From contig NZ_CP127407.1 in the NCBI RefSeq assembly GCF_030291075.1, forward strand, positions 4,380,001 through 4,440,463: 60,463 bases of DNA, written 5' to 3'. Numbering within the stretch: position 1 is the stretch's first letter; every line of letters begins with the position of its first letter. Made by a program: the position numbers and the translations under genes. Positions 16,264-41,680 of this stretch are shown in pieces. A model generated the notes under the pieces. That model searched no databases. It saw only the letters and a program-made list of their open reading frames with translations, and had not been told where the DNA came from. The DNA is from Stenotrophomonas sp. 57. GTDB taxonomy: Bacteria > Pseudomonadota > Gammaproteobacteria > Xanthomonadales > Xanthomonadaceae.

Positions 16264-16388
16264 GGATGGGGAAGGGCGGCAGAGCAGGACACGCCGTAAA
16301 CCCATCCATGGGGGCTCGGTCGGCGCATCCATGCGCCTCACGGTCCTGCCCTGCCGCCCTTCCCCATCCCTGACAGTTTCCTGCGAGC
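16264..16388 (+). repeat. Long variable-arm hairpin, copy A
   Basis: Left arm 16264-16290 pairs with right arm 16343-16369 over 27 bp with one mismatch. The 52-nt loop (16291-16342) holds two mini-hairpins, CCCAT-CC-ATGGG and GGCGCAT-CC-ATGCGCC. The tag GACAGTTTCCTGCGAGC follows at 16372-16388. Loop and tag recur in copy B, while the arms do not. It lies upstream of folE and faces copy C. Confidence 0.85.
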
Positions 16389-16460
16389 GCGGCCGGACCG
16401 CCCGAAAGCGGGGGCAAAAGCTGGGGTTCATGGCTTCGGAAGCAGCGCGCCGTCGCCCTG

Positions 16461-16485
16461 GTGGGTGCGGACCGTTGGTCCGCAC
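16461..16485. repeat. SMAG-like palindrome (GTGG variant)
   Basis: GTGGGTGCGGACC, then GTTGGTCCGCA, forms a short hairpin like SMAG units but with GTGG in place of GTAG. It lies between the two long hairpins of the folE-marR spacer. The rest of that spacer (16389-16541) shows no gene. Confidence 0.5.
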
Positions 16486-16541
16486 TGCTTCTGCTCTTGC
16501 TTCTAAGAGCCAACCCACCGCGCTCGGGGGATGTGGGGTGA

Positions 16542-16642
16542 GTGGCGGAGGGCCGGGCGGGGCCGTGAGGCGCATGAATGCGCCGATCGAGCTTACATGG
16601 ACGTACTTGCAGCGTGCCCTGCCCCGTCCCCCCCTCCGCCAC
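16542..16642 (-). repeat. Long variable-arm hairpin, copy C (inverted)
   Basis: The arms GTGGCGGAGGG (16542-16552) and CCCTCCGCCAC (16632-16642) pair perfectly, then less well inward. Read on the minus strand the loop has the same plan as copies A and B: a TACGT-CC-ATGTA mini-hairpin with one G-T pair, the spacer GCTCGATC, then GGCGCAT-TC-ATGCGCC and TCAC. The 17-nt tag of A and B is absent. This is a diverged family member facing copy A. Confidence 0.75.
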
Positions 16643-16705
16643 CCCAACCGATAGCCAACAGGCGCAACGCTTTCCTCAACACACCCACCCATTCAGAAAA
16701 ACCCA

Positions 16706-16736
16706 TTGATAGGAATGAAATTAGTAGTATCCTATC
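16706..16736 (+). promoter_or_regulatory. marR promoter with overlapping inverted repeat
   Basis: TTGATA (16706-16711) and TATCCT (16729-16734) are 17 bp apart. The inverted repeat GATAGGA (16708-16714) and TCCTATC (16730-16736) overlaps both boxes, so a bound regulator would block polymerase. This fits autoregulation by the MarR protein encoded just downstream. The predicted start near 16741 leaves almost no leader before the ATG at 16745. Confidence 0.6.
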
Positions 16737-16744
16737 TATATCTT

Positions 16745-17200
16745 ATGGACCGACCCCTCGACGAGCGCACCGTGCTGCAGATGCAGCTCAGCTCCGGCCT
16801 GCTGTACGCAGGGCGGCAGTGGCAGCGCCTGGCCGACAGTCGGCTCGGCAGCTACGGCATCTCCACCGCCTGCACCATGCCCCTGCTGATGATCGGACGC
16901 TCCGGCGGTGGCATCCGCCAGGTGGCACTGGCCCAGCAGCTGGGCATGGAAGGGCCCTCCCTGGTGCGCCTGCTGGACAAGCTGTGCGCCAGCGACCTGG
17001 TCCGCCGCGAAAGCGATGCCAGCGACCGCCGCGCCAACCTGTTGTGGCTGACCGACGCCGGGCAGGCGCTGGTCAGCGAGCTGGAAGACCAGCTGATCGG
17101 CCTGCGCCAGGACGTGTTCGGCGAGCTTTCCATGGATGAACTGCACGCCGTGCTGAAGGCCTGGCGCCTGCTGGCCGAGGCCGCCGACCGCATCACGTAA
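16745..17200 (+). CDS. MarR-family regulator of the efflux operon
   Basis: A 151-residue winged-helix regulator. The recognition region GIRQVALAQQLGMEGPSLVRLLDKL and the wing DLVRRESDASDRRANLLWLT are typical of MarR proteins, which usually repress neighbouring efflux genes until a phenolic ligand binds. The ATG at 16745 begins MDRPLDERTVLQ; a 13-codon extension to 16706 would start inside the -35 box. It heads an efflux operon on the same strand, and its likely operator overlaps its own promoter. Confidence 0.85.
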   Translation: MDRPLDERTVLQMQLSSGLLYAGRQWQRLADSRLGSYGISTACTMPLLMIGRSGGGIRQVALAQQLGMEGPSLVRLLDKLCASDLVRRESDASDRRANLLWLTDAGQALVSELEDQLIGLRQDVFGELSMDELHAVLKAWRLLAEAADRIT

Positions 17201-17308
17201 GAGCGCTGCCCCCGAACACCGCCGCTGCCGTGCATACGCCAGCGGCTTTTGCCCGTTGCCGTTGTTCTGTTGTCCCTCCCCTCCCCCACCTCGCCCCCGC
17301 CCCTTCCG

Positions 17309-17518
17309 ATGCCCGGTGAATTCAGTCTCCATGGAGTGTTCGTCCCGACCCTGCTCGGGTTGATGTTGTTGGCCTACTTGGTCAACAGCGGCCTGCACGC
17401 GCTGCTGCAGCGTGTCGGCGCCTATCGCCATGTATGGCACCCGGCGCTGTTCAACCTGGCGCTGTACGGGATCGTGCTTGGCCTGCTGTTCCACCTCCTG
17501 CGTTGGATGCAATCGTGA
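17309..17518 (+). CDS. AaeX-like DUF1656 membrane protein
   Basis: A 69-residue DUF1656 protein with two hydrophobic helices. The start MPGEFSLHGVFVPTLLGLML and the second segment LYGIVLGLLFHLLRWMQ match the small AaeX-type proteins that accompany AaeA/AaeB pumps; their exact role is unknown. The ATG at 17309 gives the family length; an upstream in-frame ATG at 17249 would add a proline-rich tail absent from relatives. Its stop overlaps the GTG of the next gene. Confidence 0.82.
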   Translation: MPGEFSLHGVFVPTLLGLMLLAYLVNSGLHALLQRVGAYRHVWHPALFNLALYGIVLGLLFHLLRWMQS

Positions 17519-18432
17519 ACAAGATCGTGAAGAAGACCCTGCCCATACTGCTGACCAGCGCAGCCGTGATCGTCGCCCTGCTGGTGCTGCGCCAGCTGTG
17601 GGTCTATTACATGGATGAGCCGTGGACCCGCGACGCCCATGTCGGTGCCGACGTGGTGCAGGTGGCACCGGACGTGTCCGGGCTGGTGGAAACGGTGAAC
17701 GTGGCCGACAACCAGGCGGTGAAGAAGGGCGACGTGCTGTTCGTGATCGACCGCGCGCGCTACCGCATCGCGCTGGAACAGGCCAAGGCCAGCCTGGCCG
17801 AGCGCCAGGCCTCGGTGGCGCAGCTGCGCCGCGAAATCGGCCGTGACCGCAGCCTGCAGGATCTGGTCGCCGCCGAGGACGCCGAAGTGCGTCGCGCCAA
17901 GCTGCAGGCTGCACAGGCTGCGCTGGGCACCGCACAGGCGGCGGTCGACCTGGCCGAGCTCAACCTGGGCCGCACCGAGGTGCGCGCACCGGCCGATGGC
18001 CGGGTCAACGACCGCACCATGCGCGTGGGCGACTACGTGGTGGCCGGCAAGCCGGTGCTGGCGCTGCTGGACACCGGCTCGTTCCGCATCGACGGCTACT
18101 TCGAGGAAACCCGCCTGCGCGGCGTGGCCGCGGGGCAGCGCGTGGACATCCGCCTGATGGGCGAATCGGCGCCGCTGCGCGGCCATGTCGAGAGCATCGC
18201 CGCTGGCATCGAGGACCGCTACCGCAGCAACGGCAGCACCCTGCTGCCGAACGTGACCCCGGCCTTCGACTGGGTGCGGCTGGCGCAGCGCATTCCGGTG
18301 CGCATCGCCATCGACGAAGTGCCAAAGGGCGTTGAGCTGATTGCCGGCCGTACCGCCACGGTGACCGTACAGACCAACAGCACGAAGCATGCAGGCAAGG
18401 TCGGCACCGCACCGACACAGGCGGGCCTGTGA
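17515..18432 (+). CDS. AaeA/HlyD-type membrane fusion protein
   Basis: The 305-residue periplasmic adaptor has one N-terminal membrane anchor (about residues 8-27). Lipoyl-like halves GADVVQVAPDVSGLVETVNV and RTEVRAPADGRVNDRTMRVGD flank a helical hairpin (about 75-145), and a beta-barrel region follows. It should link the FUSC inner-membrane pump to the outer-membrane channel. The start is GTG at 17515, overlapping the preceding stop (GTGA), as is the next gene start, so the operon is translationally coupled. Confidence 0.88.
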   Translation: MNKIVKKTLPILLTSAAVIVALLVLRQLWVYYMDEPWTRDAHVGADVVQVAPDVSGLVETVNVADNQAVKKGDVLFVIDRARYRIALEQAKASLAERQASVAQLRREIGRDRSLQDLVAAEDAEVRRAKLQAAQAALGTAQAAVDLAELNLGRTEVRAPADGRVNDRTMRVGDYVVAGKPVLALLDTGSFRIDGYFEETRLRGVAAGQRVDIRLMGESAPLRGHVESIAAGIEDRYRSNGSTLLPNVTPAFDWVRLAQRIPVRIAIDEVPKGVELIAGRTATVTVQTNSTKHAGKVGTAPTQAGL

Positions 18433-19898
18433 ACGCCACCCTGCCCCGTCTCGGCCTGATCATCGCGCTGGCCAGCCTGGCCGCGTGCAGGACCGTCGGC
18501 CCGGACTACGCGCTGCCGGAAGGCTCGGCGTTCAAGCGCCCGGAGGCCAATGCGGCCTTCATCGATACGCAGAACCCGCAGGTGGCCGCCAACCAGGCGC
18601 TGCCCGACCGCTGGTGGTCGCTGTACAACGACCCGGTGCTCGACGGGCTGATCACCCAGGCGCTGCGTGACAACGTGGAACTGAAGGCCGCCGATGCGCA
18701 CCTGCGTCGCGCCGCCGCCGTGTACGAACAGGCGCTGGACGCCGGCGGCTTCGAGTACGAGGCCGAGGCCGGCGTCAGCCGCGCGCAGCTGTCGGCCGAA
18801 TCGTTCCTGCAGGAGCACGAGCTGCCGGTGATCAACCTGGCCGATGGCAAGTTCGCGGTCAGCTACCAGTTCGACCTGTTCGGCAAGCTCAAGCGCGGCG
18901 CCGAAGCGGCGCGTGCCGACGAGCAGTCGGTGGCGGCGGCACGCGATCTGGCCCAGGTCAGCGTGGTCGCGCAGGTGGCCGACAGCTACCTGGAAATCTG
19001 CCACGCCAACCACGAACTGCACGTGGCCGAGCATTCGCTGCAGCTGCAGCAGCGCAGCCGCACCGTTACCGAGCGCCTGATCGCCGCGGGCCGCGGCACG
19101 CCGCCGGAACTGGCCCGCGCCAATGCCCAGGTGGCACTGCTGGAAGCGGCACTGCCGCCGCTGCGCGCGCAGCGTTCGGCGGCCGCCTATTCGCTGGCCG
19201 CCCTGCTCGGGCAGACCCCGGGCCAGCTGCCGGCCGGCGTGATCGACTGTGCACACGCCCCCGGCCTGGCGCAGCCGCTGCCGGTCGGTGATGGCCGTGC
19301 ACTGCTGCAGCGCCGCCCGGACGTGCGCCAGGCCGAACGCAAGCTGGCCTCGGCCACCGCGCGCATTGGCGTGGCCACCGCCGAGCTGTATCCGGACATC
19401 CGTCTGGGTGCCTCGGTCGGCGCCGCCGGTCTGCTGGAAGACTTCGGCACGCCGATGACCCAGCAATGGTCGATCGGCCCGCTGATCTCGTGGACGTTGC
19501 CGTCGTCGGGCACGCACGCGCGCATCCACGCCGCCGAAGCCGGTGCCGACGCCGCCTTGGCCGAGTTCGATCACACCGTGCTGCAGGCGCTGCGCGAGAC
19601 CCAGACTGCGCTGGACCTCTATGCGCAGGACCTGCGCCGCCTGCAGTCGCTGCGTACCGCACAGGAGCAGGCCGCACTGGCCGCCGAACAGAACCGCCGG
19701 CTGTACCAGGGTGGCCGCACGCCGTACCTGTCCAGCCTGGATGCCGACCGCAGCCTGGCCACCAGCGACGCCACCCTGGCCGCCGCCGAAGCGCAGGTCT
19801 CGCGCGACCAGATCCATCTGTTCCTGGTGCTGGGTGGCGGCTGGCAGGCAACGGTTGCCCCCGCTGCGCCGTCCACCGCACAGGCCTCGGCGAAGTAA
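18429..19898 (+). CDS. NodT/TolC-type outer-membrane efflux lipoprotein
   Basis: A 489-residue outer-membrane factor. The N terminus is a lipoprotein signal with lipobox LAAC (C20). The paired OEP repeats of the family are visible: LITQALRDNVELKAADAHL and SYQFDLFGKLKRGAEAARA in the first half, RRPDVRQAERKLASATARIG and SLDADRSLATSDATLAAAEA in the second. It should form the channel of the pump. Start is GTG at 18429 in a 4-bp overlap with the adaptor stop. The pump thus has its own channel rather than a shared TolC. Confidence 0.9.
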   Translation: MNATLPRLGLIIALASLAACRTVGPDYALPEGSAFKRPEANAAFIDTQNPQVAANQALPDRWWSLYNDPVLDGLITQALRDNVELKAADAHLRRAAAVYEQALDAGGFEYEAEAGVSRAQLSAESFLQEHELPVINLADGKFAVSYQFDLFGKLKRGAEAARADEQSVAAARDLAQVSVVAQVADSYLEICHANHELHVAEHSLQLQQRSRTVTERLIAAGRGTPPELARANAQVALLEAALPPLRAQRSAAAYSLAALLGQTPGQLPAGVIDCAHAPGLAQPLPVGDGRALLQRRPDVRQAERKLASATARIGVATAELYPDIRLGASVGAAGLLEDFGTPMTQQWSIGPLISWTLPSSGTHARIHAAEAGADAALAEFDHTVLQALRETQTALDLYAQDLRRLQSLRTAQEQAALAAEQNRRLYQGGRTPYLSSLDADRSLATSDATLAAAEAQVSRDQIHLFLVLGGGWQATVAPAAPSTAQASAK

Positions 19899-19901
19899 GC
19901 C

Positions 19902-21941
19902 ATGAACGCGCTGACCGACCGCCAGGCCTGGCTGTTCTCGATCAAGACCTACCTGGCCGCAGTGGCCGCGCTGTACATCGCCATGGCCGGCAACCTGTCG
20001 CGCCCGTACTGGGCGATGGGCACGGTGTACATCGTCAGCCAGCCGCTGCTGGGCCCGACCCGGGCCAAGGGCGTATACCGCATCGTCGGCACCCTGGTGG
20101 CCGGGCTGGCCACCCTGCTGGTGCTGCCGGCGCTGGTGGAAACGCCGCTGGTGCTGAGCGCGGCGATGTCGATCTGGCTGGCCGGCTGCCTGTTCATGGC
20201 CCTGCTCAACCGCGGGCCGCGTGGCTACGCATTCCTGCTGGCCGGTTACACCACCGCCTTCATCGGTTTCCCTGCGGTGACTTCGCCGGAGACCATCTTC
20301 GACACGGTGGTGGCACGCAGCGAAGAGATCATCCTCGGCACGGTGGTGGCGGTGCTGTTCGCCTCGCTGCTGTTCCCCGCGTCGGTGCGACCGATGCTGC
20401 GCGCCCGTATCGGCAACTGGATGGAGGACGCGGCGCAGTGGTGCCGGCAGATTCTTGAACGTGGCCGCGCGCATGCGCCACGCAACCGGTTGGCCGCCGA
20501 CCTGGTGCAGTTCGAGGCATTGATCGAGTTCCTGCGCCGCGACGACCCGCGCCATGCCGGTTCGGCAGTGTCGATGGAGCGGCTGCGCGAACGCATGCTG
20601 CTGCTGTTGCCGGTGCTGTCGTCGATTGCCGACCGCCTGAGCGCGCTGCGCAGCGAGGGGCAGACGCTGCCCGAGGGCCTGCCGGCGCTGGTCGATGACA
20701 TCCACGACTGGATCGATACGCCTGCCAGTGCCAGCGACTACGCACGCCTGCGTGCGCGCATCAGCGCGCTGAAGCCGCAGGTAGACCGCGACCTGCAGCA
20801 CCTGCAGCTGGCCAGCCTGCTACTGCGCCTGGAGGAGCTGGTGGACCTGTGGCAGGACTGCCGCACCCTGCAGCACGCCATCGACCACGGCACCGCACCG
20901 CTGGACCGCGCGCACTACCGCATCCGCACCGAGCGCGTGGCCACCGACAAGCACGTCGACTACGGCATGGCGCTGTTCTCCGCGCTCAGTGCCGGCGTGG
21001 CGCTGATGAGCTACTGCGTGCTGTGGATCGGCCTGGGTTGGGAAGGCGGCGGCAACGGCGCGATGATGGCCGCGGTAACGGCCGCGTTCTTTGCCGCACA
21101 GGACGACCCGGCACCAAGCATGGTCTCGTTCCTGGTCTGGGCCATCGTCGCTTCGCTGGTGGCCGGCGTGCACCTGTTCGGTGTGTTCCCGGCCGTGCAT
21201 GACTTCGGCCTGCTGGCACTGGTGCTGGCGGTGGCGTTCCTGCCGCTGGGGCTGCTGCTGCACCACCCCAAGAGCGCGCTGTTCGCACTGCCGTTGACGG
21301 TGAACCTGGCCGCGCTGCTGAGCCTGCAGAACACCTACAGCGCCAACATCCAGAGCTTCCTCAACTCGTCCATCGCGATGTTCATCGGCATTGGCTTCGC
21401 AGTTGTGATGACCCGCCTGTTCCGTTCGGTGGGTGCCGAGTGGACCGCGCGCCGGCTGGTGCGGCAAGGCTGGACCACGCTGGCCGAAGCCGCCGAAGGA
21501 CGTGGCCAGCAGGACCGCCAGCGCTTCGCCGCGCGCATGCTCGACCTGCTGGGCCTGCTCGCCCCGCGCCTGGCGGCGACGCCCGAGGGCAGTGACATCG
21601 CTTCGGTGGACATGCTCAATGAGGCGCGCATCGGCCTGAACATCCTGCAGCTGCGGCGCGCGCGGCTGGAGCTGCCGGAGCGCAGCCGCGAGGCGGTCGA
21701 GCACATCCTCGAGGAAATCGCCGCGCACTACCGGCGGCAGATTGCCGCGCGCAAGCCGATGGTAGCGGCTGAGGCGCTGCGCGAGCGGCTGGATACTTCG
21801 CTGGGCCGGGTCGGCAGCGTCGGCGCCTGCAAGGCCCGCGACGAGGCGCTGATGGGCCTGATCGGCCTGCGCTTCGCGCTGTTCCCCGAGGCGAAAGCGT
21901 TGGCGCCGGGGTTGTCGATGAGCGCAGCCGCACAGCCGTAG
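19902..21941 (+). CDS. AaeB-like FUSC-family efflux protein
   Basis: The 679-residue inner-membrane component belongs to the FUSC/AaeB family, which exports aromatic carboxylic acids and similar anions. Two membrane blocks are visible: about residues 14-165 (SIKTYLAAVAALYIAMAGNLSRP) and about 355-510 (ALFSALSAGVALMSYCVLWIGL), each followed by a long helical cytoplasmic region. The gene starts 3 bp after the channel gene. With MarR, DUF1656, adaptor and channel it makes a complete tripartite pump; the substrate is inferred from the family only. Confidence 0.88.
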   Translation: MNALTDRQAWLFSIKTYLAAVAALYIAMAGNLSRPYWAMGTVYIVSQPLLGPTRAKGVYRIVGTLVAGLATLLVLPALVETPLVLSAAMSIWLAGCLFMALLNRGPRGYAFLLAGYTTAFIGFPAVTSPETIFDTVVARSEEIILGTVVAVLFASLLFPASVRPMLRARIGNWMEDAAQWCRQILERGRAHAPRNRLAADLVQFEALIEFLRRDDPRHAGSAVSMERLRERMLLLLPVLSSIADRLSALRSEGQTLPEGLPALVDDIHDWIDTPASASDYARLRARISALKPQVDRDLQHLQLASLLLRLEELVDLWQDCRTLQHAIDHGTAPLDRAHYRIRTERVATDKHVDYGMALFSALSAGVALMSYCVLWIGLGWEGGGNGAMMAAVTAAFFAAQDDPAPSMVSFLVWAIVASLVAGVHLFGVFPAVHDFGLLALVLAVAFLPLGLLLHHPKSALFALPLTVNLAALLSLQNTYSANIQSFLNSSIAMFIGIGFAVVMTRLFRSVGAEWTARRLVRQGWTTLAEAAEGRGQQDRQRFAARMLDLLGLLAPRLAATPEGSDIASVDMLNEARIGLNILQLRRARLELPERSREAVEHILEEIAAHYRRQIAARKPMVAAEALRERLDTSLGRVGSVGACKARDEALMGLIGLRFALFPEAKALAPGLSMSAAAQP

Positions 21942-21963
21942 CGCGATACCCTGTGCGTCCACA

Positions 21964-22014
21964 GACCCCGTTGCCGGGGTCGGATCCTTCGCCCCGGGCG
22001 AAGGCTCTGACCCC
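21964..22014. repeat. GGGGTCGGATCC dyad after the efflux operon
   Basis: The outer half-sites GGGGTCGGATCC and GGCTCTGACCCC (21976-22014) enclose an inner CCTTCGCC/GGGCGAAGG stem. An alternative small hairpin, GACCCCG-TTGC-CGGGGTC (21964-21981), shares its left half-site, so the two cannot form together. It lies between the FUSC gene and the next gene on the same strand and could attenuate readthrough. Confidence 0.65.
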
Positions 22015-22035
22015 TGCTCTGCACAGGAAGCTCCA

Positions 22036-22434
22036 ATGAGTTACGACATGATGGTGTTCGAGGCCAGCGCCGCCCCACGCGAGGCCGCGGCGTTCATCGC
22101 CTGGTTCGAAAATCAGACGCAGTGGAACGAGCGCCACGAGTATGACGACCCGGCCGTCAGCAGCCTGGCGCTGCAGGCGTGGTTCGCGGAGATGGCGCAG
22201 GAATTCCCGCCCCTGGACGGCCCGTTGAGCAACGACGGTGATGATCGCGCCGAGGTGACCGAGTACAGCATCGGCCAGGAGGTGATCTACGGTGCGTTTG
22301 CGTATTCGGTGGCCGAGCGCGCGCATGGGCGCGTGCAGGACCTGGCCGAGAAGCACGGCGTCGGCTTCTTCGATGTGAGTGCCGACGAAGCAGCGATCGT
22401 GTTCCCCGATGGGCTGGTGCTGATCGCGGAATGA
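22036..22434 (+). CDS. Conserved hypothetical protein (MSYDMMVF type)
   Basis: A 132-residue acidic soluble protein with no signal peptide or membrane segment. The start MSYDMMVFEASAAPREAAAF resembles small cytosolic proteins of unknown function found in many proteobacteria and actinobacteria. AGGA lies about 8 nt before the ATG. It is separated from the efflux operon by a dyad repeat and converges with recD. I cannot assign a function. Confidence 0.75.
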   Translation: MSYDMMVFEASAAPREAAAFIAWFENQTQWNERHEYDDPAVSSLALQAWFAEMAQEFPPLDGPLSNDGDDRAEVTEYSIGQEVIYGAFAYSVAERAHGRVQDLAEKHGVGFFDVSADEAAIVFPDGLVLIAE

Positions 22435-22505
22435 CGGGGGCGGCAGGGCTGCACCCTGCACCTGCCGAATCAACGTCAACGTCAAAAGCGGGTATTCCTT
22501 GGGAT

Positions 22506-22627
22506 GGCGGGGTGGGTCCGGTTGAGGGGGACGCCGTAAACCCATCCATGGGGGCTTGGTCGCGGCATCCATGCCGCTCACACCCCCTCAACCGGACCCA
22601 CCCCGCCTTCGACAGTTTCCTGCGAGC
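22506..22627 (+). repeat. Long variable-arm hairpin, copy B
   Basis: Left arm 22506-22530 pairs perfectly with 22583-22607 (25 bp). The 52-nt loop (22531-22582) is nearly identical to copy A: CCCAT-CC-ATGGG, then GCGGCAT-CC-ATGCCGC, whose stem bases have changed on both sides compared with copy A. The tag GACAGTTTCCTGCGAGC follows at 22611-22627. The arm sequence is unrelated to copy A. It lies in the 384-bp space between two convergent genes, which otherwise holds only shorter palindromes. Confidence 0.88.
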
Positions 22628-22774: not shown

Positions 22775-22815
22775 GGGGTCAGATCCCGTTCCCGATGGGA
22801 ACGGGATCCGACCCC
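22775..22815 (-). repeat. GGGGTCGGATCC dyad at the recD end
   Basis: Outer GGGGTC and GACCCC enclose ATCCCGTTCCC-GAT-GGGAACGGGAT, giving a stem of about 19 bp with one mismatch. It begins 3 bp after the recD stop and may end recCBD transcription, though no U-run follows. Confidence 0.65.
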
Positions 22816-22818
22816 CGT

Positions 22819-40708: not shown

Positions 40709-41680
40709 ATGAAGATGATCCGCTTCGACGACCTGCAGTTGTTCGTCCGCACGGCCGCACTGGGCAGCTTCTCGCAGGCCGCGCGCGAGGCCGATCTGTT
40801 ACCCGGCCAGGTCGCTGCTGCCGTAGCGCGGCTGGAACGCGAACTGGACCTGCGCCTGTTCGTGCGCACCACCCGCAGCCTGCGCCTGACCGGCGAGGGC
40901 GCGCTGTACCTGCCGTATGCGCAGGAGGTGCTGGCTACCCTGCGCGAAGGGCGGGCCCGCGTGCAGGGCGAGGACGCCGAACTGCACGGCACGCTGCAGC
41001 TGTCGGCGCCGTCGGACTTCGGTCGCAACCTGCTGCTGCCGTGGCTGAGCGCGTTCCGGGCCGCTCATCCACGGCTGCGCCTGCACCTGCGCCTGTCCGA
41101 CGAAGTGGCCGACGTGTTCCGCGACCCGGTCGACGTGGCCATCCGCATCGGCCACTTCGACGACGCCAACTACGTCGCCCTGCCCCTGCTCGAAGGCAAC
41201 CGTCGTGTCCTCGCGGCTTCGCCCGATTACCTGCAGCGACGGGGCACGCCTGTGCGCCTGGAGGAACTGCGCGAGCACGATTGCCTGGTCTACCAGCTCA
41301 GTGGCCGCGCCTACGATCGCTGGTCCTTCGAGGTCGACGGGCGCCGCACCGTGATCCCGGTGCGCGGCCCGCTGGTCTGCGACGACGCCGATGTGGTGCG
41401 GCGCTGGGCGGTGGCGGGAGAAGGCATCACCTACAAATCCTGGCTGGACCTGCGCGAAGACGTGCTGGCCGGCCGCCTGCAGCTGCTGCTCGATGGCGTT
41501 GGCAGCCACATTCCGCTGCAGCTGGTGTGCCCGCACCGAAAGCAGTTCTCGCCGGCGGTACGGCAGCTGCACGCGCAGCTGCGCCAGCACCTGCAACCGC
41601 TGCTGTCTGGCATGCCCGATGGACTCGCCGGCCCCCTGTCGCCAGTCCCGGCGCTGGCCGACAATGGCAGCCCCCCGTAA
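40709..41680 (+). CDS. LysR-family regulator (divergent from oxidoreductase)
   Basis: A 323-residue LysR protein: helix-turn-helix about residues 18-40 (LGSFSQAAREADLLPGQVAA), then the ligand-binding domain from about 90 (LHGTLQLSAPSDFGRNLLLP). Start is ATG at 40709 or the next ATG at 40715. It is placed divergently to the oxidoreductase and 14 bp before a LysE-type exporter, so it may control both. The ligand is unknown. Confidence 0.88.
   Translation: MKMIRFDDLQLFVRTAALGSFSQAAREADLLPGQVAAAVARLERELDLRLFVRTTRSLRLTGEGALYLPYAQEVLATLREGRARVQGEDAELHGTLQLSAPSDFGRNLLLPWLSAFRAAHPRLRLHLRLSDEVADVFRDPVDVAIRIGHFDDANYVALPLLEGNRRVLAASPDYLQRRGTPVRLEELREHDCLVYQLSGRAYDRWSFEVDGRRTVIPVRGPLVCDDADVVRRWAVAGEGITYKSWLDLREDVLAGRLQLLLDGVGSHIPLQLVCPHRKQFSPAVRQLHAQLRQHLQPLLSGMPDGLAGPLSPVPALADNGSPP

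Follow-up and report, generated by a model that had tools for sequence, protein, structure and literature searches.

Sequestering small RNAs (sRNAs) of the CsrB/RsmB type come from one or a few dedicated genes, typically with their own promoter and an intrinsic terminator. They present GGA in hairpin loops, with several sites per RNA (PMC7652899, PMC3937308). Rfam clan CL00106 holds CsrB together with TwoAYGGAY (RF01731), a motif with two AYGGAY-loop hairpins on a junction and a poorly conserved outer stem, which is tabulated for human gut, Gammaproteobacteria and Clostridiales as probably an RNA and probably not cis-regulatory (PMC2864571). CsrA binding has been proposed for it from motif matches, with Clostridia being named (PMC4333381). 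Here we describe a repeat family of similar plan, represented by three long-armed hairpins, A, B and C, in a 60,463-nt stretch of Stenotrophomonas sp. 57 (contig NZ_CP127407.1, positions 4,380,001 to 4,440,463; the whole stretch is hereafter the window). We propose that A, B and C belong to a high-copy, TwoAYGGAY-related family of elements that are transcribed into RNA, where each would offer CsrA/RsmA a docking platform with two sites and so titrate the protein or tie mRNA ends to it, and we put the probability of this reading at roughly 0.64.

As described in the original prediction, which was made from the letters of the window, A and B, with arms of 27 and 25 bp, each enclose a 52-nt loop and carry the same 17-nt tag. 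The CCCAT-CC-ATGGG hairpin that it had pointed to is present, but the informative strand is the minus strand, on which the loop becomes a small three-way junction with two hairpins, hp1 (a stem with the hexaloop AUGGAU) and hp2 (CCC-AUGGAU-GGG). C shares the plan, as claimed, but stands in the opposite orientation as the inverted partner of A, and it looks decayed: the hp1 loop has become AUGAAU, and in the ungapped register the Watson-Crick fraction of its arm positions is only 0.55, although a long bulged stem still folds. In the list below, the hexaloops of A and B were placed from the sequence and the loop columns of the core alignment, and bit scores are those of R1, a covariance model built on the 62-nt core alone (35 distinct sequences), which includes at most a few innermost arm positions.

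16264..16388, minus strand (the RNA sense): element A, long-arm hairpin with two-loop core
16264-16290 and 16343-16369: arms of A, 27 bp, flanking the 52-nt loop
16287..16348, minus strand: 62-nt core of A, R1 81.4 bits
16327..16332, minus strand: hp1 hexaloop AUGGAU of A
16304..16309, minus strand: hp2 hexaloop AUGGAU of A
16372..16388, minus strand: 17-nt tag of A, RNA sense GCUCGCAGGAAACUGUC, an additional GGA 5' of the long arm
22506..22627, minus strand: element B, single copy downstream of recD, arm in a 35-member cluster
22506-22530 and 22583-22607: arms of B, 25 bp, flanking the 52-nt loop
22527..22588, minus strand: 62-nt core of B, R1 86.9 bits
22567..22572, minus strand: hp1 hexaloop AUGGAU of B
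22544..22549, minus strand: hp2 hexaloop AUGGAU of B
22611..22627, minus strand: 17-nt tag of B, in the RNA sense within a small hairpin containing GCAGGAAA
16542..16642, plus strand: element C, inverted partner of A, hp1 loop AUGAAU, hp2 loop AUGGAC on a UAC/GUA stem
16558..16619, plus strand: 62-nt core of C, R1 55 bits

The RNA fold z-scores of the GGA strand are -7.33 for A, -6.69 for B and -3.73 for C, and the corresponding DNA values are -6.75, -8.59 and -3.52; 0 of 200 shuffles folded equally well in each case (dinucleotide shuffles for A and B). The sole imperfect pair among 22 arm positions of A is a G·U on the minus strand and an A·C on the other.

A pattern search allowing up to 3 mismatches found 48 copies in the source genome and 0 with a reversed control; 13 of the 48 (5 irregular, 8 duplicates) were removed before R1 was built. 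The original prediction had proposed a search of the genome and other Xanthomonadaceae with the 52-nt loop as query; when they were searched with R1, many genomes proved positive and the source genome gave 130 matches (weakest E-value 0.06). These lie at 89 sites, 48 with one copy and 41 with two. Every double site is an inverted pair that has its 5' ends inside (-+), and the gap within the pairs is 153-309 nt in 38 and 1,444-1,488 nt in the other three. The tag is less constant than the "fixed tag" of the original prediction, since it varies across copies; in the window it occurs exactly at two places (16372-16388 and 22611-22627), with a 3-mismatch version at 41188-41204 on the minus strand.

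Loop counts were restricted to cores of exactly 62 nt, which left out 24 of the 130 own cores and 7 of 82 from relatives (a set in which 7 of 89 matches had not been included, 2 as duplicate fetches of the same places and 5 others) and kept 106 and 75. The hp2 loop of the 106 own cores has the form A-N-G-G-A-N, with A at column 40 in all 106, GGA in 104, and a free column 41 (T 46, G 31, A 20, C 9), while hp1 carries GGA in 101; among the relatives, GGA is kept in 74 of 75 cores in each loop. The hp2 stem alternates between CCC/GGG, UAC/GUA and UCC/GGA. Its UAC-ANGGAN-GUA form fits RUACARGGAUGU, the CsrA consensus obtained by systematic evolution of ligands by exponential enrichment (SELEX), in which most ligands carried loops of six nt (PMC7652899). 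Of the 41 occurrences of TACANGGANGTA in the whole genome, 37 fall within R1 cores, which make up 0.18% of it; the reversed sequence, used as a control, occurs 5 times. The spacing between the two GGA motifs is 20 nt; the reported bridging range of a CsrA dimer is 10-63 nt, and best above 18 (PMC7652899). Extra GGAs flank the long stem, the 5' motif in 81-84 and the 3' motif in 72 of the 130 copies, as counted with loose patterns that had no chance control.

The arms behave differently from the loops, in that sequence is free and complementarity is kept. In a fixed register of 22 arm positions over the 106 cores, the Watson-Crick fraction is 0.895 within a copy and 0.526 between copies. By arm sequence these cores fall into clusters of 35, 27, 16, 6 and 2 plus 20 singletons, with B in the cluster of 35 and A alone (its best match in its own genome is 0.68). 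The original prediction had called the arms unrelated in sequence yet self-pairing, and had named arms common to copies, or pairing at chance level, as what would speak against it. Between clusters and genera the claim stands; within clusters the arms are alike, and pairing is far above chance. To compare dissimilar arms, own, related and named-genome copies were pooled (316 used, 43 dropped, 32 of them for core length and 11 for edges), one copy per arm type was taken in three random draws, and the best of nine registers was allowed for both self- and cross-pairing. The resulting 92-96 arms, less than 70% alike, gave 0.85 self-pairing and 0.43 cross-pairing. Unfiltered, they contain 80-85 G·U and 23-30 A·C pairs, about a threefold difference (P 3e-7 to 5e-9 over the three draws, with positions inside one arm not fully independent); in the filtered count, G·U is split evenly between the two sides (35 G·T, 33 T·G). 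Equal numbers of G·U and A·C would be expected if only the symmetry of the DNA were maintained, and the excess of G·U therefore marks the GGA strand as the folding one.

Members of an inverted pair share an arm class in only 2 of 38 cases, where permutation gave a mean of 6.8 (P 0.02). A heterodimer rule, by which pair members avoid sharing an arm class, is unproven, mean arm similarity giving P 0.21 and the hp1 stems P 0.23.

The site of A, flanked by folE (GTP cyclohydrolase I) on one side and a MarR-type gene on the other (Pfam), can be followed in other species. The best 30 folE matches in the genus were fetched (protein 98-100% identical), and 25 of these 30 loci have an R1 match at the position of A. 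After exclusion of 6 that are opened, fused, rearranged or truncated, the alignment, A2, held 19 complete orthologs with 11 distinct 5' arms, the differing arms and cores being set in similar flanks. Its 41 pairs are 95.4% paired, 23 of them have changed on both sides, and there are 102 double-changed cells against a shuffled mean of 30.5 (0 of 500 shuffles as high), counts that take no account of row relatedness. The covariation is lost on sliding by 1-3 columns; the structure was drawn from one row of the alignment, L204, a choice that favours this structure in the slid control. The stems of hp1 and hp2 covary as well. Paired changes so far in excess of the controls, and over many copies, uphold the view of the original prediction that the folded form is under selection.

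These data also bear on the possibility that the structure has no function, so that template switching or quasi-palindrome correction merely keeps the arms complementary and the core is a passive relic. Whole arms are indeed replaced at one site, and in ortholog L219 a fusion by way of hp1 joins A and C, as expected from a template switch; this is a sign that template switching can happen. Rebuilding by this route, which the original prediction had raised, is a possible mutational path, but it leaves unexplained both the excess of G·U, because correction at the DNA level is blind to strand, and the keeping of GGA next to a near-random column 41. The covariation in hp1 and hp2 also speaks against a passive relic, an explanation that we disfavour and give hardly any chance of being correct. 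In a further ortholog, L220, the A-type and C-type flanks seem to have changed places with regard to folE, which is how the locus would look after an inversion of the segment between the two inverted copies.

The original prediction knew of no named family with this design, yet TwoAYGGAY has the same plan, and a locus from a relative that is also an R1 match (L277) scores 46.0 with RF01731, over the cut-off of 43, alone among the 12 loci of relatives that were scanned at this cut-off. In the order, a match above the cut-off was found in 3 of 14 genomes. The family has both loops, in the form ANGGAN, Y being relaxed to N in hp2. Tandem G-A pairs in one stem, a TwoAYGGAY feature (PMC4333381), are seen in part of the copies only: columns 10-29/11-28 are non-standard in 8 of the 35 distinct cores, 7 of them G-A/A-G, and the others are mostly standard pairs. 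Differences from TwoAYGGAY are the 130 copies per genome and the inverted pairs. On 8 non-xanthomonad loci holding the core pattern, RF01731 gave nothing at E<=0.01. The family is best called TwoAYGGAY-like, this being the closest named family, and not a proven member. Micro-RNA and Ysr224 names also came up in the Rfam scans, below their own cut-offs, and were taken as chance matches to GC-rich hairpins. From CsrB/RsmB the family differs in its 89 dispersed loci, in having two core loops per copy, and in showing no visible promoter or intrinsic terminator.

Another relevant RNA is RsmU of Xanthomonas campestris, an RsmA-binding RNA with GGA motifs and a product of a 3' untranslated region (3'-UTR; PMC7694677). 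Homology to it was rejected: R1 was run on the best TIGR00426 (comEA-type) locus per genome, with 8 weaker TIGR00426 loci left out, in the source genome and 7 genomes of genus g37 (presumed to be Xanthomonas), and gave one match at E 0.36. Judged by this search, RsmU appears to be a different RNA and is probably not a member.

The repetitive extragenic palindromic (REP)/REPIN and SMAG repeats of Stenotrophomonas resemble the family in being intergenic, high-copy and palindromic and in forming inverted doublets (PMC2613905, PMC3733652, PMC3686654). The hairpins might accordingly be mobile at the DNA level, REP/REPIN-like or terminal inverted repeat (TIR)-like, being recognised and moved as single-stranded DNA (ssDNA) by an HUH tyrosine transposase. 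The high copy number and the inverted pairs, closely spaced in 38 of 41 and of one orientation in all 41, are like those of REP doublets, SMAG-like palindromes adjoin (by eye), and folding of one strand also fits ssDNA. However, REPs have a short palindrome, conserved in sequence within each class, behind a GT(A/G)G-type tag, and are associated with RAYTs (REP-associated tyrosine transposases), whereas here the arms are free and the loops fixed; inspection of the arm foot by eye, with no count made, showed no constant GTAG and unconserved arms. Within 1.5 kb of the three Y1_Tnp genes of the source genome there is no core, and 25 of the 30 fetched congeners retain the A site, findings that leave the mobile cassette offered by the original prediction unsupported. 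The 48 single copies also show no replichore bias (P 0.56, with the origin assumed near coordinate 0), and the ANGGAN loops match the consensus of an RNA-binding protein. We consider a mobile DNA hairpin quite improbable. A REPtron or TIRtron was rejected for the source genome, where R1 found no match on the three Y1_Tnp loci, as was a lagging-strand ssDNA element, with replichore bias absent under the same assumption about the origin. Literature searches for the repeat, together with the parts consulted of PMC2613905, PMC3733652, PMC3686654, PMC2643945 and PMC12306157 and without subscription journals, brought up SMAG/REP and TIR repeats, and not this one.

A number of copies are opened by other sequences. 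In L117, L173 and L183 of the source genome and in L237 and L241 (L numbers designate individual loci), hp1 is interrupted by a structured insert that forms hairpins itself, GUGCGC-AGGACA-GCGCAC in 5 of 5 and GGGC-AGGAC-GCCC in 4 of 5 (the loop in L117 being ACGAU), and so brings in further GGA loops. A second palindromic insert, starting GTGAGGGCG, opens hp2, always at one position of the loop, in L121, L165 and L174 of the source genome and in the orthologs L203, L212, L220 and L228, where it ends CCCCGGAGGGG. IS3-type elements lie inside three pairs of the source genome (L151, L162, L170), which are the three with wide gaps; all have the same two-open reading frame (ORF) layout, and the one examined, L170, was identified by Pfam as an IS3-type transposase pair. 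L125 and L184, also in the source genome, both stop in one and the same insertion sequence (IS) end at a shared arm/junction boundary, where L124, L131 and L147 have short stretches resembling it. The hairpin seems to be a hot spot for insertions.

Other sequence features surround the copies. Between the inverted A and C, a SMAG-like palindrome GTGCGGACCGTTGGTCCGCAC lies at window 16465-16485, with similar ones seen by eye beside other copies, and the palindrome GGGGTCAGATCCCGTTCCCGATGGGAACGGGATCCGACCCC at window 22777-22817 resembles the GGGGWSAS terminal-repeat motif of PMC3733652. The outer flanks of many copies (for example L128 and L141) have imperfect (AACAGC)n tracts, mirrored about the inverted pair, and a GCAGGGC..GCCCTGC hairpin stands between the flanking gene and some elements (both by eye). 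The -+ arrangement is not universal: among 25 neighbours less than 500 nt apart in named genomes, 15 are -+, 5 +-, 3 ++ and 2 --. Xanthomonas loci L342, L358, L360, L389, L409 and L413 have arrangements other than strict -+, with clusters of four in L360, L389, L409 and L413.

With respect to genes, B sits past the 3' end of recD (Pfam), and the 89 sites of the source genome, scored with a simple ORF scorer and without a genome-wide baseline, comprise 45 tandem, 32 convergent and 12 divergent gene pairs. The surplus of convergent over divergent settings, the intergenic location and the 3'-UTR origin of RsmU would suit a cis-acting mRNA element, copies in the 3' or 5' untranslated part setting the stability or the end of a neighbouring mRNA, with or without RsmA and without any titration. 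Such an element would be expected to have a fixed orientation relative to its gene, which is not seen, and arm types switch freely among copies at one site; RsmU, moreover, is probably not a relative. We hold the cis-acting explanation to be rather unlikely, and the version tied to one gene orientation was rejected on the unbiased orientation counts given below.

The preferred reading, a dispersed docking platform for CsrA/RsmA, would work as follows. The long stem of free sequence would hold up the three-way junction with its two short hairpins, whose ANGGAN hexaloops are candidate docking sites for CsrA/RsmA; with their GGA motifs 20 nt apart, within the span of a single CsrA dimer, each copy may dock one dimer. 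Copies would probably be transcribed by read-through from adjoining genes, and jointly the many copies could titrate RsmA or attach it to transcripts or mRNA ends. The long arm would stabilise the platform, and as the stem need only be stable, its sequence could drift through paired changes. The sequences themselves show the copy number, the constraint on the GGA loops, the covarying complementarity of the arms, the strand that folds, the resemblance to TwoAYGGAY and the presence of csrA; transcription, RsmA binding and titration are steps that we infer.

Several observations weigh against this proposal. In the source genome, RF01731 stays below its cut-off, with B at 33.4 and the best of 6 matches at 40.0. 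The hp1 stems are long and GC-rich, while SELEX ligands mostly have no more than 4 contiguous pairs (PMC7652899), and RsmU with all four GGA replaced kept its RsmA binding in vitro and its overexpression effects (PMC7694677). No firm preference of orientation relative to genes was found in the single copies (++ 15, +- 15, -- 12, -+ 6) or in 66 non-xanthomonad copies (++ 15, -- 12, +- 10, -+ 7, besides 13 within an ORF by a crude caller and 9 without neighbours). A -35/-10 score of at least 9/12 was reached by 8 of 130 copies in sense, 7 of 130 in antisense and 6 of 130 shuffled, and the T-run of an intrinsic terminator was found in 1 of 130; with no signal in either scan, an independent sRNA gene with its own promoter and terminator was rejected. 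R1 was built from GGA-bearing copies and leans to them; its matches reach down to 26 of about 92 bits, so a copy that had lost nothing but GGA should still be found. The pattern used on named genomes requires GGA and says nothing on GGA conservation. Lastly, csrA is present in all 16 genomes checked, the source genome included; as 5 of these have no R1 match, the gene does not tell genomes with the family from those lacking it.

R1 matches at E<=0.01 were found in 32 of 61 genomes (4 of 20 genera), and at E<=1e-4 in 71 of 247 genomes of the family (16 of 54 genera), the source genome included in both. Up to 88 candidates per genome were scored in the 61-genome scan and 21 in the 247-genome scan, and counts of that size are floors. 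The core pattern was found in at least 120 stretches of named genomes, with Stenotrophomonas, Xanthomonas, Marinobacter, Shewanella, Alteromonas, Vibrio, Halomonas, Microbulbifer, Cellvibrio and Pantoea among the genera of the matches listed. We take all 120 listed stretches to be gammaproteobacterial, except for two metagenome-assembled genomes titled only Proteobacteria.

The control of RsmA in xanthomonads has been an open question: no rsmB homolog was reported in Xanthomonas (PMC3937308), and RsmU came later (PMC7694677). It is possible, though we regard it as doubtful, that the Xanthomonadaceae swapped a dedicated sponge RNA for a dispersed one, with up to about a hundred or more intergenic one-dimer RsmA traps per genome and read-through setting the level of free RsmA, and that this trap design, with freely evolving stems, extends through many gammaproteobacterial genera. 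In its stems, the family gives an unusually clean case of pairing being conserved and hardly anything besides. Because consensus-like RsmA sites occur in pairs at 130 places of a single Stenotrophomonas-group genome, and in named Xanthomonas species too, the RsmA question becomes directly testable.

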